The notes under the pieces: generated by a model
What the model saw: the letters and a program-made list of their open reading frames with translations, nothing else
What the model was told of the DNA's origin: nothing
The model's database searches: none
Program-made: the position numbers and the translations under genes
IMG/VR virus record: IMGVR_UViG_3300042371_001386
Location: 1-64,000 of that record
Reading direction: 5' to 3' (one strand)
DNA length: 64,000 bases
Origin: a virus
Part shown: positions 1-47,093 of the stretch, piece after piece
Numbering within the stretch: position 1 is the stretch's first letter
How the letters are laid out: every line of letters begins with the position of its first letter

Positions 1-190
1 TTACTCAAAATAATAGGGTTACTCAAATTGAAGGTTTACTCAAAATAATAGGGTTACTCAAATTGAAGGTTTACTCAAAATAATAGGGTTACTCAAATTG
101 AAGGTTTACTCAAAATTAATACCTTACTCAAGTTGAAGGTATTACTCAAAATTATAGGTTTACTCAAGCTGAAGGTATTACTGAAGATTT
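1..190. repeat. Tandem 35-bp / 18-bp direct repeats
   Basis: The octamer TTACTCAA recurs at 1, 19, 36, 54, 71, 89, 106, 124, 142 and 160, and as TTACTGAA at 178. The first three 35-bp units are identical, each made of an 18-bp and a 17-bp half. From 106 on the units are 18 bp and diverge. In the frame of the next gene the last four units read as hexapeptides of the type TQVEGI and TQNYRF, but the 35-bp period breaks the frame upstream and a TAA lies near 116. The array may be a decayed coding repeat, an iteron-like array or a regulatory array. It may continue beyond the window edge. Confidence 0.85.
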
Positions 191-825: not shown

Positions 826-981
826 TTACACTTTGAATTCTTTATATGCTTTTCTTTTAGCTTTTAAGAGTTTTGCGATATTGGTATTAATTGGGTTATA
901 GTTTCCATGTGTTTTAAGGTTTAGAGCAATTTGGATGACTTTTTCTTTATTTTGTTGTTCTGTAATATTTGATTCATTCAT
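826..981 (-). CDS. 51-residue single-repeat HA-like protein
   Basis: A short frame starts at 981 (MNESNITEQQNKEKVIQIA) and ends with TAA at 826-828. Its core, VIQIALNLKTHGNYNP followed by IAKLLKAKRKAYK, matches one unit of the nine-repeat protein just downstream on the same strand (IAQYFKTHGTYP...LSNKKRMYK). It is therefore probably a stand-alone or residual single unit of that helicase-associated-like module, which is likely DNA-binding. It may be a genuine minigene or the remnant of a longer paralog. No clear ribosome binding site is visible. Confidence 0.55.
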   Translation of the reverse strand: MNESNITEQQNKEKVIQIALNLKTHGNYNPINTNIAKLLKAKRKAYKEFKV

Positions 982-1074: not shown

Positions 1075-3471
1075 TTATTGGTTTATTATTGTTGGTTGAG
1101 CGAATGTAGGATCGAATTGTGTAGTTTTTAGGAATTCAGATATAAGGTTTTCGAAATCTTTGATCCAATAAGGTATGACTAAAAGTGGGTAGTTATATTT
1201 TTTGCAGAAGTTTAATTTTATGAGGTCGTTTGTTTGAACATATTTTAAATGTTCTTCTTTTATAATTTGTGTTTTTCCGTAGATTGGTTGATAATGTTGT
1301 TCTCCGTTGTATTCTATGAAATAGTGTAAGTTATCTTTATTGAAATAGAAATCAAAAGGTAGGCACAATTTATTGACACAAAGTTTATGTCTGTACTGTT
1401 GTATTGGTTTAATGTTAAATTTTTGGAGTACAAAATTTGTTTTTCTTTCTCCTAATGATGATTTTTGTTTTTTAATTAGCATCCAATCATCTGGTAGTCC
1501 ATGAGCTTTAGCGACTTCTATATCTGATGGATACCATTTGAACTTAGATTTAGTTCCATTGGTATAGTGTTTGAATGCTTGTCTTTTAGTGCTTAACAGT
1601 CTTCCATTTGAAAAATAATTGTCTGGGTAGTTTCCGATTTTTTTAAATTCTTGTGCGAGTGCAATTACTTTTTGATTACTTTCCTTTTCAAAATCAATAA
1701 GCAGCATCCAATCATCTGGTAAACCATGAGCTTTAGCGACTTCTATATCTGATGGATACCATGTATATTTTAATTTTGATTTAGTTCCATTGGTATAGTG
1801 CTTAAATGATTGTCTTTTATTATTTAAAAATCTCCCAATCCCAATTTTACCATTGGGATAAATTCCATGTGTTTTAAAGTATTGTGCTATTTTAGTTACT
1901 TTTTGGTTACTTTCTAATTCAAAATTATTATTGATAATCCAATCATCTGGCAGACCATGAGCTTTGGCAACTTCCATATCTGAGGGATACCATTTGTTTT
2001 TACTTTTCGTGCCATTATTGCGGTATTTAAATGAGTGTCTTTTATTGTTTAAAAATCTTCCAAGTATGGTGTTACCATTGGGATAAATTCCATGTGTTTT
2101 AAAGTATTGTGCTATTTCCTTTATTGATTGATTGCTTTCTAATTCGAAACATTTACTTATAACCCAATCATCAGGAAGTCCATAAGCTTTAGCGACTTCT
2201 ATATCTGATGGATACCATTTTAAATTAGTAAAAGTATCGTTATTGCGTTGTTTAAATGATTGTCTTTTATTATTTAGAAATATTCCAAGCATGGTGCTAC
2301 TATTGGGGTAAATTCCATGTGTTTTAAAGTATTGTGCTATTTCAATTACTTTTTGGTTACTTTCTAATTCAAAATTATTATTGATAATCCAATCATCTGG
2401 TAGACCATGAGCTTTAGCGACTTCTATATCTGAAGGATACCATTTTAAATCATGCTTCATACCATTAGTGTGTTTTTTATACATTCTTTTTTTATTTGAT
2501 AATGAAACTCCAATTTTACAAGTGTAATCAGGATAAGTTCCATGTGTTTTAAAGTATTGTGCTATTTCAATTACTTTTTGATTACTTTCCTTTTCAAAAT
2601 CAATAAGCAGCATCCAATCATCTGGTAAACCATAAGCTTTAGCAACTTCTATATCTGAAGGATACCAAATAATATTTTTTATACCATTTGTATATTTTTT
2701 ATATATGTGTCTTTTAAATGCTAATAGTTGTCCGAGTTTAGTATTGCGATTAGGATAATCTCCAAGTCTTACAAATTCTTGTGCAAGTTCTTTTATTCTT
2801 TCGTTACTTTCAAATTCACGATCAATTAGTAACATCCAATCGTCTGGTAGACCATGAGCTTTAGCGACTTCTATATCTGAAGGATATATTTTACCTTGAC
2901 TGGATCGTTTGCTAGATAAGTGTGTGCCTAATAATGTTTTTCTAGAAGGATAAGTTCCATGTTTTTTAAAATATTGTGCTATTTTAATTATTTTTTGGTT
3001 ACTTTGAAACTCATTGGTAATGGACAGCCAATCGTCTGGTAGTCCATAAGCTTTAGCGACTTCTATATCTGAAGGATATATTTTAGATTTACTTTTAATG
3101 GATTTACTTTTAAAGACTCTTCTTTTATTATGTAAAAAATAATATAAATTTGAATTTTTTTTGTAGCATGGGTAATCATTATTTTTTCTATAAAATAAAG
3201 CAAGTTTCTTTACCAAGTTATTACTTTTCAATTCCTGTTCATTGGTAATGGACAGCCAATCGTCTGGTAGACCATGAGCTTTAGCGACTTCTATATCTGA
3301 AGGATATATTTTAGTAATGGAGTTTCTTTTCTTATGTAAAAAATTATATAAATTTAAATTGTCGTTACAGGATGGGTAGTTATTGTTTTTTCTATAAAAA
3401 AAAGCAAGTTTCTTTGCCAAGTTATTACTTTTCAATTCATGATTAGATATTTTGTTCATCGTAATCCACAT
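1075..3471 (-). CDS. Nine-repeat protein with C-terminal Vsr/EDxHD-like nuclease domain
   Basis: This 798-residue protein carries nine repeats of about 65-77 residues (residues ~10-668). Each has a helical part of the type SNQKVIEIAQYFKTHGTYP, then GxxLxxKR, then the nearly invariant block YPSDIEVAKAHGLPDDW. The last 130 residues form a different domain with LPFDFYF, IEYNGEQHY, a later D..K..FC segment and LLVIPY. That is the usual layout of Vsr-like / I-Bth0305I-type (EDxHD) endonucleases. The repeats resemble the helicase-associated (HA) module. Inference: a repeat array reads DNA and the C-terminal domain cuts it, as in a homing endonuclease. The start could be M1 or M5; neither has a good ribosome binding site. 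Confidence 0.75.
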   Translation of the reverse strand: MWITMNKISNHELKSNNLAKKLAFFYRKNNNYPSCNDNLNLYNFLHKKRNSITKIYPSDIEVAKAHGLPDDWLSITNEQELKSNNLVKKLALFYRKNNDYPCYKKNSNLYYFLHNKRRVFKSKSIKSKSKIYPSDIEVAKAYGLPDDWLSITNEFQSNQKIIKIAQYFKKHGTYPSRKTLLGTHLSSKRSSQGKIYPSDIEVAKAHGLPDDWMLLIDREFESNERIKELAQEFVRLGDYPNRNTKLGQLLAFKRHIYKKYTNGIKNIIWYPSDIEVAKAYGLPDDWMLLIDFEKESNQKVIEIAQYFKTHGTYPDYTCKIGVSLSNKKRMYKKHTNGMKHDLKWYPSDIEVAKAHGLPDDWIINNNFELESNQKVIEIAQYFKTHGIYPNSSTMLGIFLNNKRQSFKQRNNDTFTNLKWYPSDIEVAKAYGLPDDWVISKCFELESNQSIKEIAQYFKTHGIYPNGNTILGRFLNNKRHSFKYRNNGTKSKNKWYPSDMEVAKAHGLPDDWIINNNFELESNQKVTKIAQYFKTHGIYPNGKIGIGRFLNNKRQSFKHYTNGTKSKLKYTWYPSDIEVAKAHGLPDDWMLLIDFEKESNQKVIALAQEFKKIGNYPDNYFSNGRLLSTKRQAFKHYTNGTKSKFKWYPSDIEVAKAHGLPDDWMLIKKQKSSLGERKTNFVLQKFNIKPIQQYRHKLCVNKLCLPFDFYFNKDNLHYFIEYNGEQHYQPIYGKTQIIKEEHLKYVQTNDLIKLNFCKKYNYPLLVIPYWIKDFENLISEFLKTTQFDPTFAQPTIINQ
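1468..3441 (-). repeat. Nine coding repeats of ~200-230 bp
   Basis: Nine direct repeats lie inside the nuclease-repeat gene. The DNA encoding YPSDIEVAKAHGLPDDW is almost identical from unit to unit. The stretch between KR and the YPSD block varies in length and sequence (for example HYTNGTKSK, QRNNDTFTN, or missing in unit 3). Strong DNA identity points to recent duplication or ongoing homogenisation. The variable linker and the YPN/YPS/YPD positions are the candidates for specificity. Confidence 0.85.
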
Positions 3472-3519
3472 GGTTAGGTTTACGATTATTATAAGTTTGG
3501 ATAAGATCTTCGGGCAAGT

Positions 3520-4488
3520 TTAATTAAAAATCAAATTATTCAAAAATTTATCAGTAGCGATATCCCAACTATATTGTTCAGCATGTTTTCTGCATTCTTG
3601 AACATTTAAATTAGAAAATGCATTCAAGATAGCTGTATCTAATATTTCATCACAGAATACTGTTTTTTCATCTTGTAGGTCTAAAGCCCCATTAATTGGG
3701 TAAGCAGCTACAGGTAGTCCGCAAGATAGGGCTTCAAGCATAACAAGACCATAGGTATCTGTTTTAGAGGGGAACACAAATACATCTGCATTATGATATG
3801 CTTGGATTAGTTCATCTCCAATTTTTTTGCCTAAGAAATAAACATCTTTATATTTTTGTTTGTAATAAGGAAGAAGAGGCCCATCACCTACCACGATTTT
3901 TTGTATAGGAAGAGTAGATTGACAGAATGCATCTAGGTTTTTTTCTTTTGATACTCTGCCGACATATAGTGCAGTATTGTTATTGGTTGGATTGCTTTTA
4001 CATTTAAAGAAATCAAGGTTTACTCCTTTTGGAGATACTTTCATATTGTTATGATTTAGCCAAGATGTTTTATTTATCAAGTTATTAGTGCAGCAAAGTA
4101 CTTTGGATGATTTGCTATGAAACCATTTAAAATAAGTTCTTGTGATGAATAGTGGTATACTGGTGTAGGACTTTATATATTCTGGGAACATAGTAAGGTA
4201 AGATGTGGTGAATTTGATATCATTTTTCAAGCAGAAATTTCTTGTAGCTAGTCCTAGAGTGCCTTCTGTAAAGATATGTACAGCGAAGTTACCAGTGAAT
4301 AGGTCTTTATCAAATTTAACATTATAAGCGAGTTTAACATCATTGGAGAAAGGGCAGTTAAATGATTTGAATTCATGGCTTGACAAGAGGCATGATTCTT
4401 TGATGTTAGCTTGATAGTTGCTTATGGTGGTAGCAACTCCATTGACATCTGGGTAGGAGGTATCAGATACTAGTATAATTTTCTTCAT
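3520..4488 (-). CDS. Glycosyltransferase family 4 (GT-B)
   Basis: The chosen start (MKKIILVSDTSYPDVNGVAT) gives 322 residues. The N-terminal domain opens with the DTSYPDVNGVATT acceptor-side motif. The C-terminal domain carries ALYVGRVSKEKN, VVGDGPLL, ADVFVFPS and the EALSCGLPVAAY segment, with the conserved Glu of retaining GT4 enzymes before it (YGLVMLEA). It should transfer a sugar from a nucleotide donor to a lipid or glycan. Its start overlaps the end of the upstream phosphoesterase by 26 bp, so the two are probably co-expressed. A longer in-frame start exists at 4512, but M9 gives the canonical N terminus. Acceptor and sugar are unknown. Confidence 0.85.
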   Translation of the reverse strand: MKKIILVSDTSYPDVNGVATTISNYQANIKESCLLSSHEFKSFNCPFSNDVKLAYNVKFDKDLFTGNFAVHIFTEGTLGLATRNFCLKNDIKFTTSYLTMFPEYIKSYTSIPLFITRTYFKWFHSKSSKVLCCTNNLINKTSWLNHNNMKVSPKGVNLDFFKCKSNPTNNNTALYVGRVSKEKNLDAFCQSTLPIQKIVVGDGPLLPYYKQKYKDVYFLGKKIGDELIQAYHNADVFVFPSKTDTYGLVMLEALSCGLPVAAYPINGALDLQDEKTVFCDEILDTAILNAFSNLNVQECRKHAEQYSWDIATDKFLNNLIFN

Positions 4489-5140
4489 ATTTTTCCAATG
4501 TAATAGTGCCATTATTGACTAACAAGAATGTTGGTGTTTTTTCAGTCCAGCATCCTGAGTTGAAGTAAGTTCCGTTATTTGCTTCTGGGCAATGTGTATG
4601 TCCAACGCAGATCAAGTCACATTTCATTTTATCTTTATATTTAATTGCTTTGGCTTTAACTTTTTCGATACATTTCAAAAAAGTTTTGCTACTCATTTTA
4701 GCTAATTTGGCCCAATAGAAATCGTTATCAAGTTTTTGGAGGAAGTGGTATAGGTAATCTGCTATTGCTACTGTTATTGGGTAGTCGGTTATAAAGTCAT
4801 CAAATTTATCGCCATGGGTACATATGATTTTTTTGTCACCTGATACAAAAATATATTCTTCATGTACATTAGATCCTAGTAGGTGAGATACTATTTCGCT
4901 AGGGCCATCATGATTACCATGAATCCAGATTACATCAATTAGAGTGGATAGGTGTCTTAGTTTTGCTAGTATTTTGAAGTGGCTACTTTTGAGTCTTCTG
5001 AAATCCCAAGAGTCGAATACATCACCATTGAGTATAAGTTTTTTGGTAGTTGGTAGATTATCAAGAAAGTGGTTTAGATCTTTAGCTTGGCAATTATCGC
5101 TACCTAGGTGAATATCAGATATAATGATTGCATCTGTCAT
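4463..5140 (-). CDS. LpxH-like calcineurin-fold metallophosphoesterase
   Basis: The 225-residue protein has the full metallophosphoesterase signature: ISDIHLG (N terminus), NGDVFDSWD, IHGNHDG, CTHGDKFD and VGHTHCPE. This order is typical of the UDP-2,3-diacylglucosamine hydrolase (LpxH) group, which cleaves a pyrophosphate in lipid A synthesis, and of related enzymes encoded beside GT4 genes in bacteria. Here it directly precedes and overlaps the GT4 gene, which supports a shared lipid or glycan substrate. The true substrate cannot be read from sequence. Alternatives are another nucleotide-pyrophosphate or phosphodiester hydrolase of the same fold. Confidence 0.8.
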   Translation of the reverse strand: MTDAIIISDIHLGSDNCQAKDLNHFLDNLPTTKKLILNGDVFDSWDFRRLKSSHFKILAKLRHLSTLIDVIWIHGNHDGPSEIVSHLLGSNVHEEYIFVSGDKKIICTHGDKFDDFITDYPITVAIADYLYHFLQKLDNDFYWAKLAKMSSKTFLKCIEKVKAKAIKYKDKMKCDLICVGHTHCPEANNGTYFNSGCWTEKTPTFLLVNNGTITLEKYEENYTSI

Positions 5141-6368: not shown

Positions 6369-7766
6369 TTACTTTGCAGCTTGTGTTTGAGGTAAGTATT
6401 TATTGATTAGCTCTTGTATTTCTGGTGTATTTCCGTGGTATGTTGTTATTAGGTTTGCCATTTCTTTTTTATCGGTTGTATAGTGAAATAGATAATAAGC
6501 AATGAGAGGAGATATTTTTAATTTAGATACAATCCATTCTATCATTGCTTTGTCATATCTTTCAAACACATAACGAATTAAGTCGATAATGTTGCTTTCG
6601 TAGAATTTTGATTCTTTAGCAATAATTAATTCTATTGTTTTTTTTGCATAAATTGGTTTAATATCATGAATAAGATCTTTAATATTTTTATAAGATATTT
6701 TGGGTTTTTTATTTATTATAAGTTTTTTAATTGGTTCTGGATAGGTTGAATATAAAGTCAAATGTCTGACATCATTATCAGAAAGTTCTGGTTTATAATT
6801 TACAATTAATTGTGCTATATGATCATTATGACTACCTGCATATCCAAGAAGTTTCAATACATTATCATCAGAAAGGTTTGTTTTTTTCTTTAGGATTAGT
6901 TCTGCAATTTTAACTTTACCTTCGTTTGTTGTATAAAAGGCCAAATTTTTAATATCATTATCAGAAAGATTTGTTTTTTTATTGATGATTAGTTCTGCCA
7001 TTTTGTCTTTATCTGTTGTATTTTTTAGAACTCCTTCAATATTTCTATGAGATTGAAGAATTGCATCCAGTTGTTGGTCAGAAATTTTATTTGGGTTGTA
7101 TTTTTCTCTTTTGACAATTTGTCCTTTTTTATTTTTATCGATGATATTATTGTCGATAGAGTATAAGACTTTTAAGGCATCTTTTGCGAATACCACACCT
7201 TGAGTTGATTCTTGAGGGTGGATTGTGCCAGTTCCATGATCTACGAATCCATCGACACCACATTTTCTAAGATTAGAGTTCCATTCTGATGGTTTGTCAT
7301 TTGCGATTGCTTTTGTTACAAGCCATAGCATAGAATAATTGCTACGAAGATTATATTCATCTTTTTTTATTTTATCTTCAGCCTCGTAAACTTTTTTGAG
7401 CGAGAAAACATTACCACTATAAAGTATATCCATACCTTTTTGTTCTTCATCACTAGGATTCATATGTAATATTTTTTGTGGTCTTGTGAATTCGCAGACA
7501 TTGAGATAAGGTTGATCTCCTGCGAATGGAACATCCATTTCATTTTCAATGACATAATTTAATGGATAAAAATAAATTCCGATTGGTGTTTTATATTCGC
7601 TTTTTGGATTGATCCCAACTTTATCGATTGCGGTATAAGTTACGACAAGGTTTTCTGGATTGGGATGAGTTTTTTGAATATGTTGTAGTGCGAGAAGGGG
7701 ATCACGAAATTCTTGATCCTTTATCATTATCTTTTCAGTTAGTATTAGCCATTGTTTAAATTTCAT
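6369..7766 (-). CDS. Tagged effector-like protein, GINP-type domain plus helical repeats
   Basis: This 465-residue protein has the leader MKFKQWLILTE (L-T-E cleavage-type site). Residues ~40-230 form a domain with DKVGINPKSEYKTPIGIYFYP, VPFAGDQPYLNV and a late GFVDHGTGTIHP...GVVFA segment. It is shared with 11126-12577 but not with the YHRT-type neighbours. From ~230 on there are about seven repeats of the type DKDKMAELIINKKTNLSDND. The C terminus is the common ...YLPQTQAAK. The domain looks enzymatic (invariant-looking Gly, His and Gln positions), but I cannot assign a reaction. Spacing to the upstream gene is 3 bp, so the two are co-transcribed. Confidence 0.7.
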   Translation of the reverse strand: MKFKQWLILTEKIMIKDQEFRDPLLALQHIQKTHPNPENLVVTYTAIDKVGINPKSEYKTPIGIYFYPLNYVIENEMDVPFAGDQPYLNVCEFTRPQKILHMNPSDEEQKGMDILYSGNVFSLKKVYEAEDKIKKDEYNLRSNYSMLWLVTKAIANDKPSEWNSNLRKCGVDGFVDHGTGTIHPQESTQGVVFAKDALKVLYSIDNNIIDKNKKGQIVKREKYNPNKISDQQLDAILQSHRNIEGVLKNTTDKDKMAELIINKKTNLSDNDIKNLAFYTTNEGKVKIAELILKKKTNLSDDNVLKLLGYAGSHNDHIAQLIVNYKPELSDNDVRHLTLYSTYPEPIKKLIINKKPKISYKNIKDLIHDIKPIYAKKTIELIIAKESKFYESNIIDLIRYVFERYDKAMIEWIVSKLKISPLIAYYLFHYTTDKKEMANLITTYHGNTPEIQELINKYLPQTQAAK

Positions 7767-7769
7767 AGT

Positions 7770-9245
7770 TTACTTTGCAGCTATTGTTTGAGTTAGGTAT
7801 TGATTGATTACTTGTTGAATTTTTGGTGTTTTATTTGTGTGGTATTTATTTAGTATTTGTGCCATTTTTGGTTGGTCTTTTTCATAATCAAGTAAATTTA
7901 TAATGTTCTGATCAGAAAGTTTGTTTATATTATCTGTTCCTAATAGTTTTGCTATTTGTTCTTTATCTATTGTATGTCGAAGTAAAGTAATAACATCGGC
8001 ATCAGAAATTTCTGTTTTGTGTTTTATAATTAGTTCTGCTATTTTATCTTTGTTTATTGAATTTATAAGCAGATCATAAACACTTTGATAAGAAAGTTCT
8101 AATTTTTTATTTATAATTGCTTCTGCTATTTTATCTTTATCGGATGCACTATAAAGTAAAAGTTGGATTATAGTGCTAGAAAAGTTTGTTTTTTTGTTTA
8201 TAATTAGTTTTGCTATTTTATCTTTGTCTGTTGTAGTTTGTAACAAATCAACAACATTTGTATCAGAAAGTTTTGTTTTGTATTTTACAATTAGTTCTGC
8301 TATTTCGTTTTGTTTAGTTGAATTTTTAAGAAAAACTTTAACATTAGTATCAGAAAGTTTTGTTTTGTACTTTATGATTACTTCTGCCATTTTGTCTTTA
8401 TCTGTTGACTTTTTAATCAAAAGACTGACATCAAAATCAGAAAGTTCGTTTAGATTTGATCCTAAATATTTTGCTACTGCTTCTAAATTTTTAGAATTTA
8501 ACAATTTATTAAAAATGCTTTTACCGATTTCGTAATTGTAACCAAATGAAAATTTTTCTCTGTTTGGTGATTTATAAATACTTTTCATACTTGCCTTATC
8601 GGTGGAGGTAATCCAGCCAATATTACTCTTTAGATCTTTCATTTTTTGTTCATCGTTTGCATCTGCTTCTGCAACCGCATAACCCAACATTGTTATTGTT
8701 TCATCTTTAACTGGTTGATATTTAACTAAGCAGTAGCCATCATTTGCTCCATAATAGATAATTCCTTTAATTGATTTTTCTATCCAATCATTTTGGTCGT
8801 AGAATTTTTTTGCTAAAATTGCCGAATAGGTTTCTTTTTCTTGTAGTTCATCGTAGTGTTTTAAGTTGTCGCCTTTTTGACCACCAAATTCCCCTTTAGT
8901 TACTTTGTTTAGTAGTCCAAATTTCTTTAATTGACTGCTTATTTTGTAATCATTGCCATGGATTTTTTTTGCTTCAGATAATTCAAATATGAGGTACTTG
9001 TCAAGGTCTGTTACTTTAAATTTGACTAATGTTTCGCCATACATTTTCATATAATCGGTAAATTGACTTTCTATTTTATAAGTAGTATAAAGACCACAAC
9101 CATACCAACAACCTTTACCTGCTCCTGATTTGAAATCAGATGTGAGTATATTTGATACAGAGTCAACATTTGTCCTATGATAGACAGTTGCAGTCTTATT
9201 TTGAGCATAAATTTCTTCAGATATTAGCCATTCTTTAAAGTTCAT
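7770..9245 (-). CDS. Tagged ADP-ribosyltransferase-like effector with helical repeats
   Basis: The leader MNFKEWLISEE ends in I-S-E. The domain at residues ~18-230 has TVYHRT, then GCWYGCGLYTTY, ESQF, and a late YYGANDGYCLVKY. An H-[RG]-T strand followed by YGxGLYTT is the pattern of PARP/ART-like NAD-dependent transferases, although the catalytic acidic residue cannot be fixed by eye. Residues ~250-480 hold about eight 29-residue repeats (DKIAELIVKYKTKLSDTNV type), likely a two-helix solenoid for target recognition. T4 Alt is a known capsid-packaged, injected ADP-ribosyltransferase, which makes the combination of tag and ART-like domain coherent. The product ends in TQTIAAK. Confidence 0.65.
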   Translation of the reverse strand: MNFKEWLISEEIYAQNKTATVYHRTNVDSVSNILTSDFKSGAGKGCWYGCGLYTTYKIESQFTDYMKMYGETLVKFKVTDLDKYLIFELSEAKKIHGNDYKISSQLKKFGLLNKVTKGEFGGQKGDNLKHYDELQEKETYSAILAKKFYDQNDWIEKSIKGIIYYGANDGYCLVKYQPVKDETITMLGYAVAEADANDEQKMKDLKSNIGWITSTDKASMKSIYKSPNREKFSFGYNYEIGKSIFNKLLNSKNLEAVAKYLGSNLNELSDFDVSLLIKKSTDKDKMAEVIIKYKTKLSDTNVKVFLKNSTKQNEIAELIVKYKTKLSDTNVVDLLQTTTDKDKIAKLIINKKTNFSSTIIQLLLYSASDKDKIAEAIINKKLELSYQSVYDLLINSINKDKIAELIIKHKTEISDADVITLLRHTIDKEQIAKLLGTDNINKLSDQNIINLLDYEKDQPKMAQILNKYHTNKTPKIQQVINQYLTQTIAAK

Positions 9246-9349
9246 AAGGTATTTATGTGAGTTTAATCGGGAAATAAGTCTTGTGTGTAATAAAAATTTT
9301 GTTATATTTTAAATTAAATTAATTGTGTTATTCCTAACAGGAAATGAAC

Positions 9350-10282
9350 ATGGAACCAAGAATTATCGGTTATTGCAGGGTAAGTGGCGATGGGCAACAT
9401 GGAAATGATCAAGATGGCGTACCCCGACAACATCGAGTCATAGAGTCTTGGGCAAAAAAGAACAAACAACGAATTAGCGAATGGATTGAAGATCTTGGTG
9501 TAAGTGGAACTTTAGCGTTTGCTGATCGACCAGAATTATCGAAATTACTTGCAAACATTTATCCTGCTGGAATTTTCGTTGTGGAAAAAGCTGATCGTCT
9601 TGCAAGGGATCTCATTGAAGGCGAATTAATCATTCGGCATTTTAGTAGAGCAGGTTGGAAAGTCATTTCTGCTGAAACTGGTGAAGACTTAGCAAATTCA
9701 GAATCACCAACTGCAATTCTAATGCGACAGCTTACAGGGGCAATAGCGGAATTTGACAGAAGGAACACTGTTGCAAGATTGCGAGTTTCGAGGGAAAGAA
9801 AACGAAAAGAAACGGGCAAATGCGAAGGACGAAAAGCCTTTAACAATCAAAGTGTTCTTATGCGAATCAGAAAACTTATGCGAAAGAAAAATGGCACTAA
9901 GCCCAGTTTGCAATGGGTTGCTAATCAATTAAATGCAGAAGGAATGATAACAGCTAGTGGGAAAATGTGGACTACTGGAATGGTTTACCACTTCGTTCAT
10001 GGTGCTGGCTCTAAAGTTAAAAGAGAATCTGGAATATTGTCGCCATCTACACAAAACAAGGAAATTAAAATGGCAAAGAAACTTGTGGTTAAAAAAATAC
10101 AAGTAAATAACAAATATACTTACATATGTGATAAACCAGTAAGGATAGGAAGTGAGGTTAAATTACCAACTCCTCATTGGATGCGTGAATTTCAAGATGA
10201 CACATGGATTGGTAAGGTAACTGATTTAAAGAGTGATTACGATGGTGTGTGTGAAAGTGTAATTGAAGTATTAAAAAAATAG
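9350..10282 (+). CDS. Serine recombinase (resolvase/invertase family)
   Basis: This is a serine recombinase with the catalytic motif YCRVSGDGQ (Ser12 from the chosen start), DLGVSGT, the VEKADRLARD segment and the IAEFDRRNTVARLR helix. An HTH-like tail follows (LQWVANQLNAEGMITASGK). The start at 9350 is preferred: AGGAA lies six bases upstream, whereas ATG 9344 is only two bases from it. It is the only plus-strand gene in the 6369-10282 stretch, and its codon use and base composition look less AT-rich than its neighbours, suggesting later arrival. The last 70 residues look like a separate domain (next entry). No inverted att-like repeats were found around it. Confidence 0.9.
   Translation: MEPRIIGYCRVSGDGQHGNDQDGVPRQHRVIESWAKKNKQRISEWIEDLGVSGTLAFADRPELSKLLANIYPAGIFVVEKADRLARDLIEGELIIRHFSRAGWKVISAETGEDLANSESPTAILMRQLTGAIAEFDRRNTVARLRVSRERKRKETGKCEGRKAFNNQSVLMRIRKLMRKKNGTKPSLQWVANQLNAEGMITASGKMWTTGMVYHFVHGAGSKVKRESGILSPSTQNKEIKMAKKLVVKKIQVNNKYTYICDKPVRIGSEVKLPTPHWMREFQDDTWIGKVTDLKSDYDGVCESVIEVLKK
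10070..10282 (+). CDS. Possible internal start: 70-residue C-terminal domain
   Basis: Inside the recombinase frame, AAGGAAATTAAA directly precedes ATG 10070 (MAKKLVVKKIQVNNKYTYIC), a better ribosome binding site than that of the recombinase itself. The 70-residue product would carry the RIGSEVKLPTP...WIGKVTDL segment, which resembles a small SH3/KOW-like barrel. Either the recombinase was fused in frame to a former stand-alone gene, or both products are made. I cannot decide from sequence alone. Confidence 0.4.
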   Translation: MAKKLVVKKIQVNNKYTYICDKPVRIGSEVKLPTPHWMREFQDDTWIGKVTDLKSDYDGVCESVIEVLKK

Positions 10283-10324
10283 GATTCATTTAATAGATAT
10301 AATAACTTTCAATGGAGATTTAAA

Positions 10325-10615
10325 ATGAAGTCTTTAATTTTGTTTTTGGTTATGTTTTTGGGTATTAGTAGTGTTGCTGAAGCACAGTTCATTGTTGTTT
10401 ATCCACAAGTTAGATATTACAACAATTATGGTTACAATTACAACAACTACAATTACAATAACTATGGTTATAGAAACTATGGTTACAACAACTACAACAA
10501 CTACAATTATGGTTACAACAATAACTGGAATAGGTATGTGACACCAAGTGGATACATGCCATTTAACAATCCATATTTTCAGATGGCTACACAGGGAATT
10601 GGTAGAGGTTGGTAG
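10325..10615 (+). CDS. Secreted Tyr/Asn-rich low-complexity protein
   Basis: This 96-residue protein has a signal peptide (MKSLILFLVMFLGISSVAEA, cleavage likely after AEA) and then a run of YNNYNYGY-like units. It ends with FNNPYFQMATQGIGRGW. GGAG lies 10 bases before the ATG. The last block (NNPYFQMATQGI) is nearly repeated in the other secreted low-complexity protein at 26963 (NNPFYQMAMQGI), so the two are related by their C-terminal module despite different repeats. The role is unknown; Tyr/Asn-rich secreted proteins are often surface or matrix-forming. Confidence 0.75.
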   Translation: MKSLILFLVMFLGISSVAEAQFIVVYPQVRYYNNYGYNYNNYNYNNYGYRNYGYNNYNNYNYGYNNNWNRYVTPSGYMPFNNPYFQMATQGIGRGW

Positions 10616-10656
10616 TTATTGTTTAAAATATATTTTTCAAAAAATTAAGGTACAAA

Positions 10657-11190
10657 ATGAAATCTTTTTATGAATATGTAAAAGTGCGTGATATTAATGA
10701 AGATTACTATGATTCTAGAAAACCCGTTGAAGGTTATGTTGATGCTAATGATTTAGTAGGACAAAGACTCTGGTTTCACACTAATAGAACTCATAAAATT
10801 CAGGGTTTAAATGGCATGATTGGTATTTATCAAACTACACCAAGCGGTAGAAAAAAAGGATTGGCTGGCAAATATACAAATGAAGTAAGATTGTCGGAAC
10901 CTATTTTTTTTCAAACATCGGAATCTGGTGCCAAACAAATTATGGAAAAAGATAAAAGAACTTTAATTGCTGGTGTTTCTGGAAAAGTTGTTCCTACTAA
11001 TAATGATACAAGCGGTATGGTAAAGATTACTTATAATCCATTCAATGAAGATGCACCATGGTTTCATGCCATTGATGATTCAGAAAATAAAGAAATTGTG
11101 TCTGCTTCTGAAGTTTATTTCAATGCTACTGAAAATGGTCAGTGGGATATATGGGCAAAGAATCCTGTTCATGCTTTAAAAACTCTTTAA
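10657..11190 (+). CDS. Tagged protein of unknown function (MKSFYEYVKVRD)
   Basis: This 177-residue protein has the leader MKSFYEYVKVRDINED, of the MKSF.EY type also seen at 39804. AAGG precedes the ATG. The body contains QRLWFHTNRTHKIQ, GMIGIYQTTPSGRKKG, a DKRTLIAGVSGKVVP strand and a C-terminal DIWAKNPVHALKTL. It is mostly beta-strand by pattern and has no membrane segment. I do not recognise the family. Its 3' end overlaps the convergent gene 11126-12577 by 65 bp, which is a recombination-type junction affecting the other gene rather than this one. Confidence 0.65.
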   Translation: MKSFYEYVKVRDINEDYYDSRKPVEGYVDANDLVGQRLWFHTNRTHKIQGLNGMIGIYQTTPSGRKKGLAGKYTNEVRLSEPIFFQTSESGAKQIMEKDKRTLIAGVSGKVVPTNNDTSGMVKITYNPFNEDAPWFHAIDDSENKEIVSASEVYFNATENGQWDIWAKNPVHALKTL

Positions 11191-12577
11191 TTTTTTCATT
11201 TTTATTTTTATGATATTTTTCTATAATTTGTATTATTTTTGGTTTATCTTTTTCTGGAACTTTTTCATGTAAAAGTGTGATAGAAAACCAATTAAGTCTA
11301 CTTATATTATCTTCTCCTAATTTTTTTGCTATTTTGTCTTTATCAATTGCATAAGTTAGAATATTGATCATATTTTTATAAGTCATTTCTGGTAATCTTT
11401 CTATAAGAAGATTTGCCATCTTGTCTTTATCAGTTGCATATTGAAGAAAATTTTCGACATTATTATCAGTAAGTTTTGTTTTATAATCAATAATCAATTC
11501 TATGATTTTATCTTTATCGTTTACGAGTGAGATCATATATGAAACATTACTATCTGTAAATTCTGGGGTTTTTTGAATAATCATTTTTGCCATTTTGTCT
11601 TTATCTTTTGCATGATAAATCAAATCTTCAACATCGACATGAGAAATATATGTTTTATATTTTATGATTAGATCTGCCATTTTTTCTTTTTCTGTTGTAT
11701 TTTTAAACAAGTTTGTAAGATCTAAAGATCTACGAGATTGCAATAAGCCTATAATTTGTTCATCTGACATCTTATTGCTATTATATTTATCTGTTTTTTT
11801 GAAGTATGTTGAGTTGTCAATTGAGTGAAGTAGTTTCAAGGCACTGGTAGCAAAAACAACGCATTGGGTTGGTTCGCTTGGATGAATTGTTCCAGTTCCA
11901 TGATCTACAAATCCATCTATTCCACATTTTCTAAGATTGGCGTTCCATTGTGTGATTTTTCTATTTGCAAGTATTCTTGTTACGATCCACAATTTGGAGT
12001 AATTGCTACGAAGTTGGTATGCTGCTCCTTGCAATTCATCTTTTACATAATCATAATAAGTTTTGGCATCAATATACTTTTTATAAAGATCATCTTCTTT
12101 TTCTTGATCATATTGAAGATTATTCAGTTTGGTTTTTTTGTGATCTGATAATTTTTGAGCTTTATTGAACATGTCTACTGATGGATTAATTTCTTTAATA
12201 GCTTGATCTACTTGTTCTTTTGGAAAAACATTGAGTAGTTCCATTCCATCTTGTTTAGACACATCGGGATTCATATGTAATATTTTTTGTGGTCTTGTGA
12301 ATTCGCAGACATTAATATAAGGTTGATTTGCAGCGAATGGAACATTCATTTTCTTTTCAATTACATAATCTATAGGATAGAGATAAATGCCAAGTGGTGT
12401 TTCATATTTGCTTTCTGGATTAAGACCAACTTTATCGATTTTGGTAAAAGTTACGGCTAGTGTGTTGGGGAAAGGGTGATTTTTTCGAATATATTGTAGT
12501 GCAATAAGAGGCTCACGGAATTCTTGATCCTTTATCATTATCTTTTCTGTCAGTAGTAGCCATTCTTTAAAGTTCAT
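11126..12577 (-). CDS. Tagged effector-like protein, GINP-type domain plus repeats
   Basis: The leader is MNFKEWLLLTE. The N-terminal domain parallels the one at 6369: DKVGLNPESKYETPLGIYLY, VPFAANQPYINV and GFVDHGTGTIHP followed by EPTQCVVFA. It has an extra lysine-rich segment of ~50 residues (SDHKKTKLNNLQYDQEKED). About six helical repeats follow. The C terminus is abnormal: instead of the family tail it ends EQDSLPIYPTDHFQ, residues encoded by the antisense of the neighbouring gene's 3' end. The natural end seems to have been lost by recombination. The gene overlaps the upstream Nudix gene by 4 bp (ATGA), so translation is probably coupled. Confidence 0.7.
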   Translation of the reverse strand: MNFKEWLLLTEKIMIKDQEFREPLIALQYIRKNHPFPNTLAVTFTKIDKVGLNPESKYETPLGIYLYPIDYVIEKKMNVPFAANQPYINVCEFTRPQKILHMNPDVSKQDGMELLNVFPKEQVDQAIKEINPSVDMFNKAQKLSDHKKTKLNNLQYDQEKEDDLYKKYIDAKTYYDYVKDELQGAAYQLRSNYSKLWIVTRILANRKITQWNANLRKCGIDGFVDHGTGTIHPSEPTQCVVFATSALKLLHSIDNSTYFKKTDKYNSNKMSDEQIIGLLQSRRSLDLTNLFKNTTEKEKMADLIIKYKTYISHVDVEDLIYHAKDKDKMAKMIIQKTPEFTDSNVSYMISLVNDKDKIIELIIDYKTKLTDNNVENFLQYATDKDKMANLLIERLPEMTYKNMINILTYAIDKDKIAKKLGEDNISRLNWFSITLLHEKVPEKDKPKIIQIIEKYHKNKNEKIKEFLKHEQDSLPIYPTDHFQ

Positions 12578-13023
12578 TGGGTTATCTTTTTTGAAAAAAC
12601 ACTTAATATAAATTCTTTTATGTATGGAACAAAATCATAATTATTTATTTCATCTTTTGTAATAAATTTATAATTTGAATTTTCATAATCTAATTTTATA
12701 TTTTGACTTTCTAATTCTCCATAAAAATAATAAATCTCTCCAGCATCAACAGTCATTATTTTATGATCAAAAGAAACATTATTTGGTTTTAATCCTATTT
12801 CTTCAAGGCACTCTCTTATTATGGCTTCTTTTGGGTTTTCTCCTTCTTCAATTCCGCCACCTACTAAGCTCCATTTGTTTGGCATCCAAGGAGCAGTAGA
12901 TCCTCTTTTTAGTATTAAGACTTTATTATCATTTAAAAGTCCTATTACAGATGTTTTAAATTTAGAATGATCTGTATCAGTTGATGTCTCTTCTTTCAGT
13001 ATTAGCCATTCTTTAAAGTTCAT
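12574..13023 (-). CDS. Tagged Nudix hydrolase, candidate capsid cargo
   Basis: This 149-residue protein has the leader MNFKEWLILKEE (L-K-E site). It then carries a complete Nudix box, GGGIEEGENPKEAII followed by RECLEEIGL (GX5EX7REUXEEXGU), preceded by NKWSLVG as in MutT-type enzymes. Nudix enzymes cleave nucleoside diphosphates linked to another group, such as oxidised dNTPs, NAD-like cofactors, ADP-ribose or RNA caps. It is encoded within the ART-like gene array, 3 bp from the next tagged gene. Inference: it may act on NAD(H) or ADP-ribose made by the ART-like neighbours, or on signalling nucleotides. The substrate is not readable from sequence. Confidence 0.85.
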   Translation of the reverse strand: MNFKEWLILKEETSTDTDHSKFKTSVIGLLNDNKVLILKRGSTAPWMPNKWSLVGGGIEEGENPKEAIIRECLEEIGLKPNNVSFDHKIMTVDAGEIYYFYGELESQNIKLDYENSNYKFITKDEINNYDFVPYIKEFILSVFSKKITQ

Positions 13024-13026
13024 GGT

Positions 13027-14592
13027 TTACTTTGCAGCTATTGCTTGAGGTTCAAGGTATTTATCGATTAGCTCTTGAATTTCTGATGTTTTATTTGTGT
13101 GATATTTGTTTATGATTTGTGCGATTTTTGGTTTGTCGGTTACAGCAACAAGCAAACGATAAACACCATCATCAGAAAGTTCTGGTTCCTTTTTCATAAT
13201 ATATTCTGCTATTTTTTCTTGGTCTTTTGCATATCGAATCAAATCACGAACACCATTTTCAATATCTATTTTTGATAGTTTGTTTATGATTAATTCTATT
13301 ATTTTGTCTTTGTCGTTTGCTTTAAAAATAAAATAATAAACATTATCCTCAGAAAGCTCTGGTTTGTATTTTATGATTATTTTTAACATCTCGTCTTTGT
13401 CATTTACTCTTGCAATCAAATCACGAATAAGAAGATTAGAAAGTTTGCTTATATTGTCTTTTTCTTTTTGCAATATTTCTGCTATTTTTTCTTTATTGTT
13501 TGCCTTAAGAAGCAAATAATAAATATTATCATCAGAAAGTTCTGGTTTCTTTTCAATAATTAGTTCTGCTATTTTGTCTATGTTATCTGCATAAGAAAGC
13601 AAATGAAAAACATTATGATCAGAAAGTTCTGGTTTCTTTTCAATAATTAATTTTGCTATTATATCTTTTTCCTTTGCATTCATAATTGAAGTGCTGACAT
13701 CTTTGTCAGAAAGTTTTGTTTTATACTTTATAATTACTTCTATCATTTTTTCTTTATCGGTTGCCTTATAAAGTAAAACGCCAACATTATCTTGAGAAAG
13801 TTGGTTTAGATTTGATCCTAATTTTTTTGCTGTGTATTCTACATTTTTAGATTTTAACAATTGATTCATAATATGGACATTGTCATCTTCGCCAAATGAA
13901 AATTTTTCTCTATTAGATATTGGTGATTTATAAATACTTTTAATACTTGCCTTATCGGTGGAAATAATCCAATTTTTTGATTTTGGATTTTTAAGTTCTT
14001 CCATCTTTTTCATATCATCATATTTTGCAACTGCATAGGCCAACATGGTTATTGTTCCATCTTGGACTGGTTCATATTTAACTAAACAATAACCATCATT
14101 TGCTCCATAATAAATAATTCCTTTTACCGAATTTTCTATCCATTTGTTTTTTTCGTAGAATTTTACCGCCAAAACCGATGAAAAGCTTTCTTTTTCTTGT
14201 TGTTCATCGTATTCTTTCAACTTACTTTCATCTACTTTGTTTAATACTCCTAATTTCTTTAATTGATCGCTTATTTTGTAATCCTTGCCATGTATTTGTT
14301 TTGCCACAGATAATTGAAATATAAGATATTTATCGAGATCTGTTACTTTAAATTTGACTACTGCTTTACCATAAGTTTCCATGTAATTAGTAAATTGGCT
14401 TTCTATTGCAAAAGTAGTGTAAAAACCACAACCATACATACAACCTGAACCAACTTTAAAATCTTTTGTGAGTATGCTTGATACAGCTTGAACGCTTTTT
14501 TCTTCATCGCAACCAGGACAAGTTCTATGATAGACAGTTGCAGTCTTATTGGGGAAGATTTCTTCAGATATTAGCCATTCTTTAAAGTTCAT
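13027..14592 (-). CDS. Tagged ADP-ribosyltransferase-like effector with repeats
   Basis: The leader MNFKEWLISEEIFPNK is followed by the YHRT domain: TVYHRTCPGCDEEKSVQ, GSGCMYGCGFYTTF and YGANDGYCLVKY. This copy and the one at 18813 share a CPGC/CQDC insertion after YHRT that is absent from the 7770 and 14610 copies. The two cysteines plus downstream Cys residues could bind a metal. About nine helical repeats of the KIAELIIEKKPELSDDN type occupy residues ~255-500. The tail is YLEPQAIAAK. The stop codon lies 3 bp before the Nudix gene; no Shine-Dalgarno is visible at the start. Confidence 0.65.
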   Translation of the reverse strand: MNFKEWLISEEIFPNKTATVYHRTCPGCDEEKSVQAVSSILTKDFKVGSGCMYGCGFYTTFAIESQFTNYMETYGKAVVKFKVTDLDKYLIFQLSVAKQIHGKDYKISDQLKKLGVLNKVDESKLKEYDEQQEKESFSSVLAVKFYEKNKWIENSVKGIIYYGANDGYCLVKYEPVQDGTITMLAYAVAKYDDMKKMEELKNPKSKNWIISTDKASIKSIYKSPISNREKFSFGEDDNVHIMNQLLKSKNVEYTAKKLGSNLNQLSQDNVGVLLYKATDKEKMIEVIIKYKTKLSDKDVSTSIMNAKEKDIIAKLIIEKKPELSDHNVFHLLSYADNIDKIAELIIEKKPELSDDNIYYLLLKANNKEKIAEILQKEKDNISKLSNLLIRDLIARVNDKDEMLKIIIKYKPELSEDNVYYFIFKANDKDKIIELIINKLSKIDIENGVRDLIRYAKDQEKIAEYIMKKEPELSDDGVYRLLVAVTDKPKIAQIINKYHTNKTSEIQELIDKYLEPQAIAAK

Positions 14593-14609
14593 AGTTTACA
14601 ACCTAGTAA

Positions 14610-16115: not shown

Positions 16116-16118
16116 AGT

Positions 16119-16691
16119 TTATTTTGCAGCCATTGGAATTTGTGGGTATTGTTTTTTAAACCAATCCATATATTTTTGATTAACAATAACTTTTTTATTT
16201 ACATCTCCAACTCCAATAACATGAGCTTGTACATCACCAGAATCATTTACACTTAGGTTTGGTATAAACATTGCCATCATTTTCATAGTTTCTGGTGGTG
16301 GCACTATAAATCCTCTTTTTTCTGCCATGCTTGCTATACTATCACTTACAGCACCCCAAACAGGTTTGTTGAGATTATCAACAAGACTTAATCCTTTTAG
16401 AATAGCTCTAGTACTTCCTGCAACTCCTGTTAATTTTACTAAACCTGAATTTTGAAATCTAACACAAACAAATCCTGCTGCTGGATCATGTTCAGATTCT
16501 GGTGGTATTCCAAAAAAAGTCCATGATCTTGATCTTCCAAGGAATGTGTTCATATCCCATGCTTTTCCTGTTGATTTAAGATAAGACTCAACAAAAATAT
16601 TGTAAACCCATTCTGGCACAATGTTCTTATCACTTAATGTAAAACTTTGTGGTTCTGTATTTTCTAATAACCATTCAATAAATGTAATCAT
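16119..16691 (-). CDS. Tagged GNAT-like protein
   Basis: This 190-residue protein has the leader MITFIEWLLEN (L-L-E site), with AGGA eight bases upstream of the start. A segment FVCVRFQNSGLVKLTGVAGS is followed by a helix and then VWGAVSDSIASMAEKRGFIVPP, reminiscent of the beta4/beta5 and final helix of GNAT acyltransferases, where the last helix precedes a KxGF turn. This is a weak fold inference. The C terminus, YPQIPMAAK, resembles the -QTIAAK ending of the adjacent effector genes although the bodies are unrelated. The function is unknown; it is grouped with the cargo set by its tag and position. Confidence 0.5.
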   Translation of the reverse strand: MITFIEWLLENTEPQSFTLSDKNIVPEWVYNIFVESYLKSTGKAWDMNTFLGRSRSWTFFGIPPESEHDPAAGFVCVRFQNSGLVKLTGVAGSTRAILKGLSLVDNLNKPVWGAVSDSIASMAEKRGFIVPPPETMKMMAMFIPNLSVNDSGDVQAHVIGVGDVNKKVIVNQKYMDWFKKQYPQIPMAAK

Positions 16692-16707
16692 ATATAATTT
16701 TTCCTAT

Positions 16708-18276: not shown

Positions 18277-18334
18277 AGATCCTCATATTTGTTGATAATA
18301 TGGTATCTATGTGGTTCGATGAAGGAAATTAATG

Positions 18335-18745
18335 TTACATATGCACTAATTTTTCTATAATTTTGCTATCTTTTTCTAATAGCCATTGTAGTCCAAAATG
18401 AATGGGTGATGGCCAATTTCCAAATTCGACCCATTTATAATCTTGAGTTTCCCAATTTAAACATGGAGTGAATTCTTCATCTATTATTCCCAAGAAATTG
18501 TGATATTTAAATACAAACCAATTCATGGTTGATAATTTGATTAGTTCGATATTTCCATTATATCCAGATTCTTCTCTTAGTTCTCTTTTTGCTGTTTCTT
18601 GTGGAATTTCATCAGGGGAAGAAAAACCTCCCCAAGTTCCCCAAGTATTTGGTTGACCAACTTGCTTAGACCTATGAGGAAGCAGTATTTTTTTTGTGTT
18701 TTTGGCCAAAATGATACATCCAGAACCTTGTTTTACAAATTGCAT
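18335..18745 (-). CDS. Nudix hydrolase, untagged
   Basis: This 136-residue Nudix protein has WGTWGGFSSPDEIPQETA followed by KRELREESGYNG, with the catalytic REUXEE core intact. It begins MQFVKQGSGCIILAKNTKK, without the cargo leader, unlike the tagged Nudix at 12574. Such small phage Nudix proteins often sanitise nucleotides or act on dinucleoside polyphosphates. It stands alone between two minus-strand genes, with about 58 bp of upstream space after 18276 and 67 bp on the other side. The substrate is unknown. Confidence 0.85.
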   Translation of the reverse strand: MQFVKQGSGCIILAKNTKKILLPHRSKQVGQPNTWGTWGGFSSPDEIPQETAKRELREESGYNGNIELIKLSTMNWFVFKYHNFLGIIDEEFTPCLNWETQDYKWVEFGNWPSPIHFGLQWLLEKDSKIIEKLVHM

Positions 18746-18812
18746 GTTTTTCCCAATACTGTTAAAAATAAATTACCTAAGTAACTATAGCAATTAATTT
18801 TTGATAGTAAAG

Positions 18813-44315: not shown

Positions 44316-47093
44316 TTAATCTTTTCTGATAACCAAATTCCAAATCCCCGCTTTCTTAAACATTTTTATTGTGGACTCGTATGGCGACCTACCCTCTTTG
44401 ATTTTGTGTCTTAGTCCGCTAACACACACTCCCAATGGAGAACTGGTTGATGGTATGTGTCCATGTTTTTTATGATACACGCAAATTTTTTCAGCCGCTT
44501 TGTTCTCTCTGATTTCGTAAGTGTTGATACAACTTATTTCCTCCCATATCCCCGCTTTCTTTAGAATTTTAACTGTGGATTTTTCTGGTGATCCACCCTT
44601 TTTAATTTTAGATCTTAATGATCCGATCCATTTTCCCAATTTTAATTTAGTTGATGGCATGTGTCCATGTTTTTTATAATAAACACAAATCTCTTCAGCT
44701 ATTTGATTCTCTTTAATTTCATGAATGTTAAGACAAATAACCTCTTCCAAAATACCAGCCTTCTTTAGAATTTTTACTGTGGATTCGTATGGCGACCTGC
44801 CATCTCTGATTTTTTTTCTTAAGCCACTAATCCATCCTCCCAACTTAGAACTGGTTAATGGGATGTGTCCATGTTTTTTATGATAAGCACAAATCTTTTC
44901 GGCCATTTCATTCTCCCTAATTTCATGCATATTAATGCAAGTGACTTCTTCCAAAATCCCATCATTCTTTAGAATTTCAACTGTGGATTCATATGGTGAT
45001 CCACCTTTTTTTATTTTAAATCTTAATCCACCGATCCATTTTCCCAATTTTAATTTAAATAATGGGAGGTGTCCATGTTTTCTATAATATAAACAAACTT
45101 GTTGAGCCATTTCATTCTCCCTAATTTCATGAATGTTCAAAGAACTGACCTCTTTCCAAATTCCAGCTTTATTAAACATTTTTACTGTAGATTCGTATGG
45201 TGATACGCCTTCTCTAATTTTTTTTCTTATGTATGAAATACACCTGCCAATTTTAGAACCAACAGATGGAATGATTCCATGTTTTTTATAATAATCGCAA
45301 ATTTCTTCGGCCATTTTATTTTCTTCTGTCTCCCCGCTATTCATTCTTTCTCGTAGCAATTTTAAAGAATCTTTGTCCACTAAAGAGCTAATGTAGTGCT
45401 GTACAAAACCAGATGGGTTTTTACATTTTTCAATCATATCCCAATCAATATTTGAAACATTTTCATTCTTCATCTTCAACGACCTCCTTGAGAGAATCGA
45501 AAATATCTCACACGAAATTTCTTCGATTTCACCTTTTGTAATTTTGTTTGCACCAAAAAATTCAACAACACACTTTTTAATTTTTCCAATGACATTTACA
45601 GAATCGTCTTTAGCATCATATTTTGAAAAAATGTATTTAAAAACATTGTTCAAAAGAGATATTTTTCTATTTTCATCTAACTTGCTTAAGGCAGATTCAA
45701 CTTTGTCATTTCTTTCTTTTCGATCAACACTTAATGGTGAATCTTTAATTTCCGAAACTGGATTCATCGCATTTTCCATTAACATGTTGACTGCAATTAA
45801 CTTAAAATAAGTATTAAGTTTATTTTCCATTTCGTCATCTAACATAAGAGGCATGATGTGCATAATCTTTGCAGTCGGCTTGCCTTGCTTGTCTCTGATT
45901 ACACGACCAACCATTTGAATCAAATCAGTAACAGATTCTTTAATGCCTGTTATTATCATGCCATTTGCAAATTCCCAATCACAACCTTCCTTGAACATGT
46001 TCAATGAAATGATGCAATCAAGAGCATTTTTATCGTTGTTTATATTAACACCACCAATGACACCAGAAAAATAATCTTTTCTTAAGTGTCTATTTTCTTC
46101 GCTTACAAGATCTAGTATTTTGTATTTTTCTCCTTTTTCATTTATCAATTCTATGATCCCATAATCATTAGTTTTTATTTTTTTTGCACCAAATTTCTTA
46201 GCAAGCATTTTCACAATACTTCGTACTTCGTTTTTCTTGCAATCAGTTTTCATTTTGTTCATTCTGTTGGGAATGTAAATTATGATTTTTTTATGATCAG
46301 AAGAAAAAAGAGAGTCAATGCAATTTCTTACTGAAGACAGATAGCTTGTTGTTTTGGCTGTATTAGATCCAAAAACAAAATCATAAGAAAAGTTTTTAAA
46401 ATGTTTCATTTGATTTATCCACACATCGAGCGGGAGACTATATTTTGAAAATTTAGATGCTAGTTCAGCAGATATAATCTGTTGCTTGTCGCCACGGAAA
46501 AAAGTTGCGGTAACTAAAACAATGTCATTTTTATGACTGAGTTTTTCGACAACTTCTCCAATTCTATTCGAACTATGCTGCACATGGTGTGCTTCATCTA
46601 CCACAAGAACTAAATTATTCCAAATCTTTTCATTTCTGAATTTTTCCCAACATAAAACCAATGTCTGACGGCAACAGATGATTACTCTTTCGTTAATGCC
46701 ATTGATTTCTTTGGAACTCAAAAACGACAGAAGCTCTCCAATAGTTCTGATGCCTTTTTTGTTACATAGATTAGTTTTTGGATTCCAATCTATTTTAGTT
46801 CCATCAGTCAATTGGACTTTAATATTTTTGCCAAAGCTCGATGCGATAAGAGTTTCTGGAACACAAATAATCACTTTCTTGTTACTGTTTGCAGCCTTTT
46901 TCCAAGCGAGGCTGGCGATGACAATACTCTTACCAGACCCAGTGGGAGCATTTATAACAGCCAATTGTTCGTTTTGAAGCTGTTTTCGGCAATCTACCTG
47001 CCAATTTCTTTCTTTGACATATTCATCGTTATTTTCGATGATTGTAGAGTGATTCAAAGACTTCCAATTAAATCCATCAATCTTATTAGACAT
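44316..47093 (-). CDS. SF2 helicase with five C-terminal HA repeats
   Basis: This 925-residue protein has Walker A NAPTGSGKSIVIAS (~48-61), DEAH in VLVVDEAHHVQHS, the motif III-like VLVTATFF, and motifs V/VI NMFKEGCDWEFANG and IQMVGRVIRDKQGKP. It is thus a complete superfamily 2 translocase of the restriction-helicase type. The C terminus (~590-925) holds five 68-residue helicase-associated (HA) repeats. AAAGGG precedes the ATG. HA arrays are thought to bind nucleic acid and direct the motor. The repeats resemble those in the 826 and 1075 proteins. Confidence 0.85.
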   Translation of the reverse strand: MSNKIDGFNWKSLNHSTIIENNDEYVKERNWQVDCRKQLQNEQLAVINAPTGSGKSIVIASLAWKKAANSNKKVIICVPETLIASSFGKNIKVQLTDGTKIDWNPKTNLCNKKGIRTIGELLSFLSSKEINGINERVIICCRQTLVLCWEKFRNEKIWNNLVLVVDEAHHVQHSSNRIGEVVEKLSHKNDIVLVTATFFRGDKQQIISAELASKFSKYSLPLDVWINQMKHFKNFSYDFVFGSNTAKTTSYLSSVRNCIDSLFSSDHKKIIIYIPNRMNKMKTDCKKNEVRSIVKMLAKKFGAKKIKTNDYGIIELINEKGEKYKILDLVSEENRHLRKDYFSGVIGGVNINNDKNALDCIISLNMFKEGCDWEFANGMIITGIKESVTDLIQMVGRVIRDKQGKPTAKIMHIMPLMLDDEMENKLNTYFKLIAVNMLMENAMNPVSEIKDSPLSVDRKERNDKVESALSKLDENRKISLLNNVFKYIFSKYDAKDDSVNVIGKIKKCVVEFFGANKITKGEIEEISCEIFSILSRRSLKMKNENVSNIDWDMIEKCKNPSGFVQHYISSLVDKDSLKLLRERMNSGETEENKMAEEICDYYKKHGIIPSVGSKIGRCISYIRKKIREGVSPYESTVKMFNKAGIWKEVSSLNIHEIRENEMAQQVCLYYRKHGHLPLFKLKLGKWIGGLRFKIKKGGSPYESTVEILKNDGILEEVTCINMHEIRENEMAEKICAYHKKHGHIPLTSSKLGGWISGLRKKIRDGRSPYESTVKILKKAGILEEVICLNIHEIKENQIAEEICVYYKKHGHMPSTKLKLGKWIGSLRSKIKKGGSPEKSTVKILKKAGIWEEISCINTYEIRENKAAEKICVYHKKHGHIPSTSSPLGVCVSGLRHKIKEGRSPYESTIKMFKKAGIWNLVIRKD
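44319..45326 (-). repeat. Five coding HA repeats of ~204 bp
   Basis: Five units of the type ENEMAEKICAYHKKHGHIP, LGxWIxxLRxKIKxGxSP, STVKILKKAGIW occur in tandem. Conserved positions are KKHG, P, LG, KI and the SPYEST block. The variation lies in the two residues after HGH and the loops. Unit spacing is constant (68 residues), unlike the more variable units in the 1075-3471 gene. Confidence 0.85.

Follow-up and report, generated by a model that had tools for sequence, protein, structure and literature searches.

A mobile phage gene that joins nine divergent helicase-associated modules to an EDxHD nuclease, probably a homing-type endonuclease

The locus analyzed here raises the question of what a regular array of repeats joined to a nuclease does in the genome of a lake phage, and whether the array could direct the nuclease to DNA. 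The window, i.e. the whole 64,000-nucleotide stretch analyzed, belongs to an IMG/VR virus record of 84,901 bases, and the gene, called as an open reading frame at 1075..3471 (-), begins with ATG and encodes 798 aa. A preliminary description made from the sequence had proposed a modular homing endonuclease, and much of that proposal stands, including the EDxHD nuclease, the modular array of helicase-associated (HA) units and the mobility of the gene, but neither a target nor an empty site was found. The reading we favor, and regard as fairly probable, is that the gene encodes an EDxHD homing-type endonuclease, free-standing and mobile, with a nine-module HA array to target it.

Each unit of the protein ends in LPDDW, and cutting there gives nine units of 72, 76, 64, 74, 75, 75, 75, 77, and 75 aa followed by a 135-aa C-terminal domain. 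On the minus strand these are unit 1 (aa 1–72, 3256..3471), unit 2 (aa 73–148, 3028..3255), unit 3 (aa 149–212, 2836..3027), unit 4 (aa 213–286, 2614..2835), unit 5 (aa 287–361, 2389..2613), unit 6 (aa 362–436, 2164..2388), which has three helices in the model, and units 7 (aa 437–511, 1939..2163), 8 (aa 512–588, 1708..1938), and 9 (aa 589–663, 1483..1707), all modelled. Chance does not account for the array, because TRF reports a tandem repeat with a 225-bp period and a score of 1206 and a unit profile recovers all nine units (E 4e-27 to 5e-43). It is basic, with net charge +36 and pI 9.5. The units had been described as near-identical repeats with an invariant block; there are indeed nine of them, but near-identity is confined to a 17-residue block, YPSDIEVAKAHGLPDDW, which is itself near-invariant, with I/M and H/Y variants, and whole units are 40–79% identical in pairs. 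Units 1 and 2 form a divergent subtype, 68% identical to each other and 40–52% to units 3–9. Judging from substitution rates (dS 0.40 and dN 0.02 between paralogous units, dS 0.78 and dN 0.05 between orthologous ones), the block is maintained by purifying selection. Recent gene conversion or copying was considered as its source and ruled out, since no other region compared has an ortholog dS as high as that of the block.

The C-terminal domain (aa 664–798, 1078..1482 (-)) contains both IEYNGEQHY and LLVIPY, as first described, and is assigned as an EDxHD (Vsr-like) nuclease from its match to phrog_9084, its conservation, and its fold. Residues 665–783 match homing-endonuclease and intron-nuclease PHROGs with E 3e-20 to 1e-13, namely phrog_9084 (homing endonuclease, E 3.4e-20), phrog_559, and phrog_7140. 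The lack of a Glu/Asp/His active site would have counted against a homing endonuclease; the full EDxHD set is present as E675 (1447–1449), D707 (1351–1353), E720 (1312–1314), H726 (1294–1296), and D749 (1225–1227), all on the minus strand, and in an alignment of 54 viral relatives the last four do not vary and conservation of E675 is 90% or more. In a model of units 8–9 with the nuclease, the nuclease core has pLDDT 93–98, and Foldseek matches it to Vsr 1cw0 (probability 0.96, TM 0.57 on the target, E 0.3) and to Holliday-junction resolvases; with E-values above 0.01 these matches support a Vsr-like fold and fall short of proof. The Vsr/EDxHD-like nuclease named in the preliminary description is thus borne out by all five motif residues and the fold match. 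PDB sequence searches with the nuclease gave no significant match, solved EDxHD members included, and weak Myb matches in a PDB sequence search (E about 0.6) were set aside as non-significant.

Identity of the units is less direct, in that a Pfam scan of the whole protein and of the unit consensus gave no PF03457 match. HA repeats are widespread on helicases, and the same window encodes an SF2 helicase with five C-terminal HA repeats (44316..47093 (-); PF03457 52.4 bits against a cut-off of 28.4, with ResIII and DEAD) that serves as a reference array. The unit profile matches the HA repeats of this helicase (E 1e-7 to 6e-4), and profile-profile comparison with hhalign agrees (95%, 2.6e-8). A second lake phage (contigs L119 and L122) has a four-unit array that is above the PF03457 cut-off and is found by the unit profile too. 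Each unit is predicted to consist of three helices, and the top viral matches of a three-unit fold model (probability 0.91–1.0, E > 0.001) include HA-domain proteins, viral helicases, and a giant-virus protein annotated with a T5orf172 domain. From the helicase match, the profile-profile score, the L119 array, and the fold matches together, the units are divergent HA modules, linked to accepted HA repeats through intermediates. Structure prediction, which the preliminary description had called for, resolved the three helices of each unit but placed the units poorly relative to each other (pTM 0.46); a fold search found no resembling structure for the array in the PDB, and a PDB sequence search with the units gave no significant match. 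TALE repeats are 34 aa and PUF repeats 36 aa long; with units of 64–77 aa and no Pfam match of either kind there is no sign of TALE or PUF, and the original assignment to HA modules instead of these holds by profile, Pfam intermediates, and fold. Our literature searches for an HA domain with a homing endonuclease returned nothing relevant.

A comparison of relatives, with units and nuclease aligned by separate models, suggests how such a combination could have been assembled. Among phages and viral contigs, most relatives of the nuclease have zinc treble-clef modules in an array: at least two CxxC/CGC motifs lie upstream of the nuclease in 137 of 154 ORFs, a set in which at least 80 residues upstream were required and some members are cut copies of the window gene. 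Such motifs are absent upstream of the nuclease in the window array and, besides the window copies, L011, and L111, in only four nuclease ORFs. HA-linked forms are arranged in several ways, as nine HA units before the nuclease (window and L011), two before it (L111), the nuclease before two (L119 gene 1), and four without a nuclease (L119 gene 2). In the second lake phage the two genes are neighbors with the same leader and the same N-terminal tag (2572–3675 and 3833–4912 in L119, 3836–4912 and 5085–6188 in L122), one encoding nuclease plus two HA units and the other four HA units. A hybrid protein in L116 (4559–6226) contains three DUF4379 modules, one HA unit, and an EDxHD nuclease, and so shows a route by which phage nucleases exchange targeting modules. 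In the tree the HA-linked nucleases group together as one clade (92/81; 96% of bootstrap trees), so a single switch from zinc to HA modules suffices to explain them. Unit profiles found no HA unit in the loci from a genome scan for nuclease relatives, and tblastn with an L119 protein as query found no HA arrays in known phage records.

Comparison of contigs also bears on movement of the gene. Identical copies occur in IMG/VR records L009 and L010, and L011 has an ortholog, again with nine units, whose protein is 80% identical (the copy being 80–85% identical). What L011 and the window have in common is the gene with roughly 50 bases of leader ahead of its start codon (3472..3526 (-)), and their flanks beyond are unrelated. 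A glycosyltransferase gene borders the window nuclease gene and is 91% identical on the L011 contig, about 15 kb away from the nuclease there. DNA homology between the window and L110/L111 spans this glycosyltransferase gene and ends one base past its stop codon, adjoining the nuclease gene, in keeping with the reported location of phage nuclease genes at boundaries of genetic exchange (PMC10448857). On this comparison the nuclease gene moves between related phages, since L011 has the same gene and leader in unrelated flanks, and it sits at a boundary of genetic exchange. The occupation of different surroundings by the two copies falls short of homing to one allele: searches with the flanking genes returned the same phage or no relative, giving no empty site or allele without the gene, and neither a target site nor an intron association was found. 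A small ORF just downstream (826..981 (-)) resembles a lone half HA unit with helices 1–2 only (unit profile E 8.6e-8 at 835–963), and might be taken to mean that the locus is a decaying or inactive remnant of a selfish gene; this is hardly credible given that the 798-aa frame is intact in three records and in the 80% identical ortholog, that motif residues are intact, and that nuclease dN/dS between the window and L011 is 0.14. Two features of the contigs may be recorded here. A 35-bp tandem repeat occupies window 1–182, where the related L009 and L010 contigs end too, probably at an assembly break, and near its nuclease copy L011 encodes a 798-aa protein with long Thr-rich (PTTTTTTTT) tracts (2287–4683).

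If the array reads DNA, the residues that do so might be expected among those that differ between units, and the preliminary description had suggested comparing copies for variable residues. When this was done, variation fell on the loop before helix 2, i.e. after Tyr-Pro, and on one face of helix 2, at positions spaced 3–4 apart (columns 47, 50, 51, and 54 of a joint alignment), with nearly constant L, K, and R between them. Columns that vary in the window array tend to vary in the helicase HA array as well (Spearman 0.33, P 0.008), and there is a weak correlation with the L119 array (0.23, P 0.06). Of the units in the window and L011 arrays, numbers 6 and 7 are the most different. Between orthologous units of the window and L011, dN/dS was 1.08 in variable columns, 0.15 in helix 1, and 0.07 in helix 3, a contrast that is indicative because the variable columns were picked from the same units and the numbers of sites are small (24 non-synonymous, 6 synonymous). 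Such a pattern is expected of a recognition surface, and an exposed face under relaxed constraint could produce it as well. It also bears on the idea that the HA array is a non-specific scaffold for nucleic acid or protein and the nuclease a Vsr-like repair or structure-specific enzyme. HA repeats do sit on helicases, this phage's included, where sequence-specific binding is not established (the literature we found reports none for HA repeats), and the nuclease fold resembles Holliday-junction resolvases as well as Vsr. However, in independent arrays it is the same loop and helix-2 columns, as opposed to the rest of the unit, that differ from one unit to the next, the gene is mobile, and the close relatives of the nuclease are zinc-array proteins of homing type, and we judge the scaffold improbable.

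There is also the matter of an N-terminal tag resembling MxFKxWLxxE, found on 16 of the 76 window ORFs where shuffled N-termini would give 0.13, for example at 7770–9245, 11126–12577, 12574–13023, 13027–14592, 14610–16115, 18813–20984, 24367–25614, and 40570–41082, all (-). It occurs also in L110, L111, and L119, and its carriers are otherwise unrelated proteins, with domains that include NUDIX, CCA/poly(A) polymerase-like, and C39-peptidase. Its spacing is like that of the T4 capsid-targeting sequence, in which the 10 N-terminal residues are enough for targeting and which is able to bring nucleases into cells (PMC9026906); the tagged proteins may be internal head proteins. The nuclease might act against competitors or the host and not for its own spread, and in related phages might be packed into capsids and injected. 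This is consistent with the MNFKxWLxxE start of the HA nuclease and the hybrid in L111 and L116 and of the nuclease-plus-HA and HA-alone proteins in L119 and L122, and with the tagged NUDIX and C39-peptidase proteins of the window. Against it, the window and L011 copies are without the tag (the window N-terminus, MWITMNKISNHEL, lacks the L/I-x-E of the tag), the 84.9-kb fragment has no T4-type prohead protease or capsid Pfam match, and packaging is read from the motif alone. We therefore treat packaging as only a lead, given the untagged window nuclease and the absence of a T4-type prohead protease from the fragment, and consider action against competitors or the host rather unlikely as the role of this gene. 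Elsewhere in the window, large tagged paralogs containing tandem repeats of 29 aa (87 bp) follow one another over 6369–21032 (-); the start of several, KTATVYHRT...GSGCMYGCGxYTT, is reminiscent by eye of ADP-ribosyltransferases, and none matched a Pfam family at cut-off. A Gly-Gln-Phe-rich 15-bp repeat of 13 copies with 99% match lies at 27298–27550 (+) within a 281-aa protein, and one ORF at 63340–63930 (+) contains an HNH-like module duplicated with a 237-bp period, possibly another nuclease gene.

Taken as a targeted homing-type endonuclease, the protein could work as follows. In each three-helix bundle the near-invariant helix-3 block would have the structural role, and contact with DNA would probably fall to the parts that vary from unit to unit, namely the post-Tyr-Pro loop and the exposed side of helix 2. 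With the basic array stretched along an extended DNA target, the C-terminal nuclease would be positioned to make a break or nick beside it, through which a competitor genome could acquire a copy of the gene. We infer DNA binding, sequence specificity, cleavage, and homing from this arrangement, and what the gene encodes is probably a "homing" nuclease of the selfish kind whose DNA-reading array can evolve. A broader proposal, which we offer as possible though doubtful, is that HA arrays are an evolvable recognition system in which each unit reads a short sequence step through the post-Tyr-Pro loop and one helix-2 face while helix 3 provides a constant frame, phages re-aim nucleases by both shuffling and mutating units, and the enzymes of tagged relatives are carried in virions and injected. 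Nine HA units as the apparent targeting part of a nuclease make the binding mode of the repeat directly testable, and if the array does recognize a particular DNA sequence, HA repeats would join the modular scaffolds known to read DNA.

Several known systems share parts of this plan. EDxHD homing endonucleases of the I-Bth0305I type (PMC3943268) likewise join a Vsr-like catalytic domain, equipped with E, D, H, and D, to an elongated multi-module DNA-binding region, whose counterpart in the window protein would be the array predicted to bind DNA; they differ in having NUMOD, zinc, and HTH elements where the window has HA modules, and no intron association was found for the window gene. EDxHD phage proteins with DUF4379/treble-clef modules (for example L110 10080–11495, Lactococcus phage AM9, and Listeria phage P70) have the same nuclease, 30–45% identical, and the same array-plus-nuclease plan, but their modules are of the zinc-binding Cys type, of which the window array has none. 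T5orf172 homing endonucleases with repeated Zn-fingers (PMC10448857) combine DNA-binding modules, as beads on a string, with a nuclease, and lie at phage genetic-exchange boundaries with their repeats recombining, although both nuclease class and module are different. The Tunisvirus protein V9SDZ9, known here by database name and fold match alone, has HA-like units by fold beside a domain annotated as T5orf172; it belongs to a giant virus and its nuclease class is again another. HA repeats of SF2 helicases (PF03457) resemble the window units in their three helices, the helix-2 pattern LGxxLxxKR, and a variable loop after Pro, whereas the window units are nuclease-linked, nine in number, and have a longer linker between helices 2 and 3. 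Finally, TALE nucleases offer a parallel in a regular helical array joined to a nuclease, with variation at fixed positions of each unit, yet they have no sequence relation to the window protein, whose units of about 75 aa, compared with 34 aa, vary at several positions with no code known.
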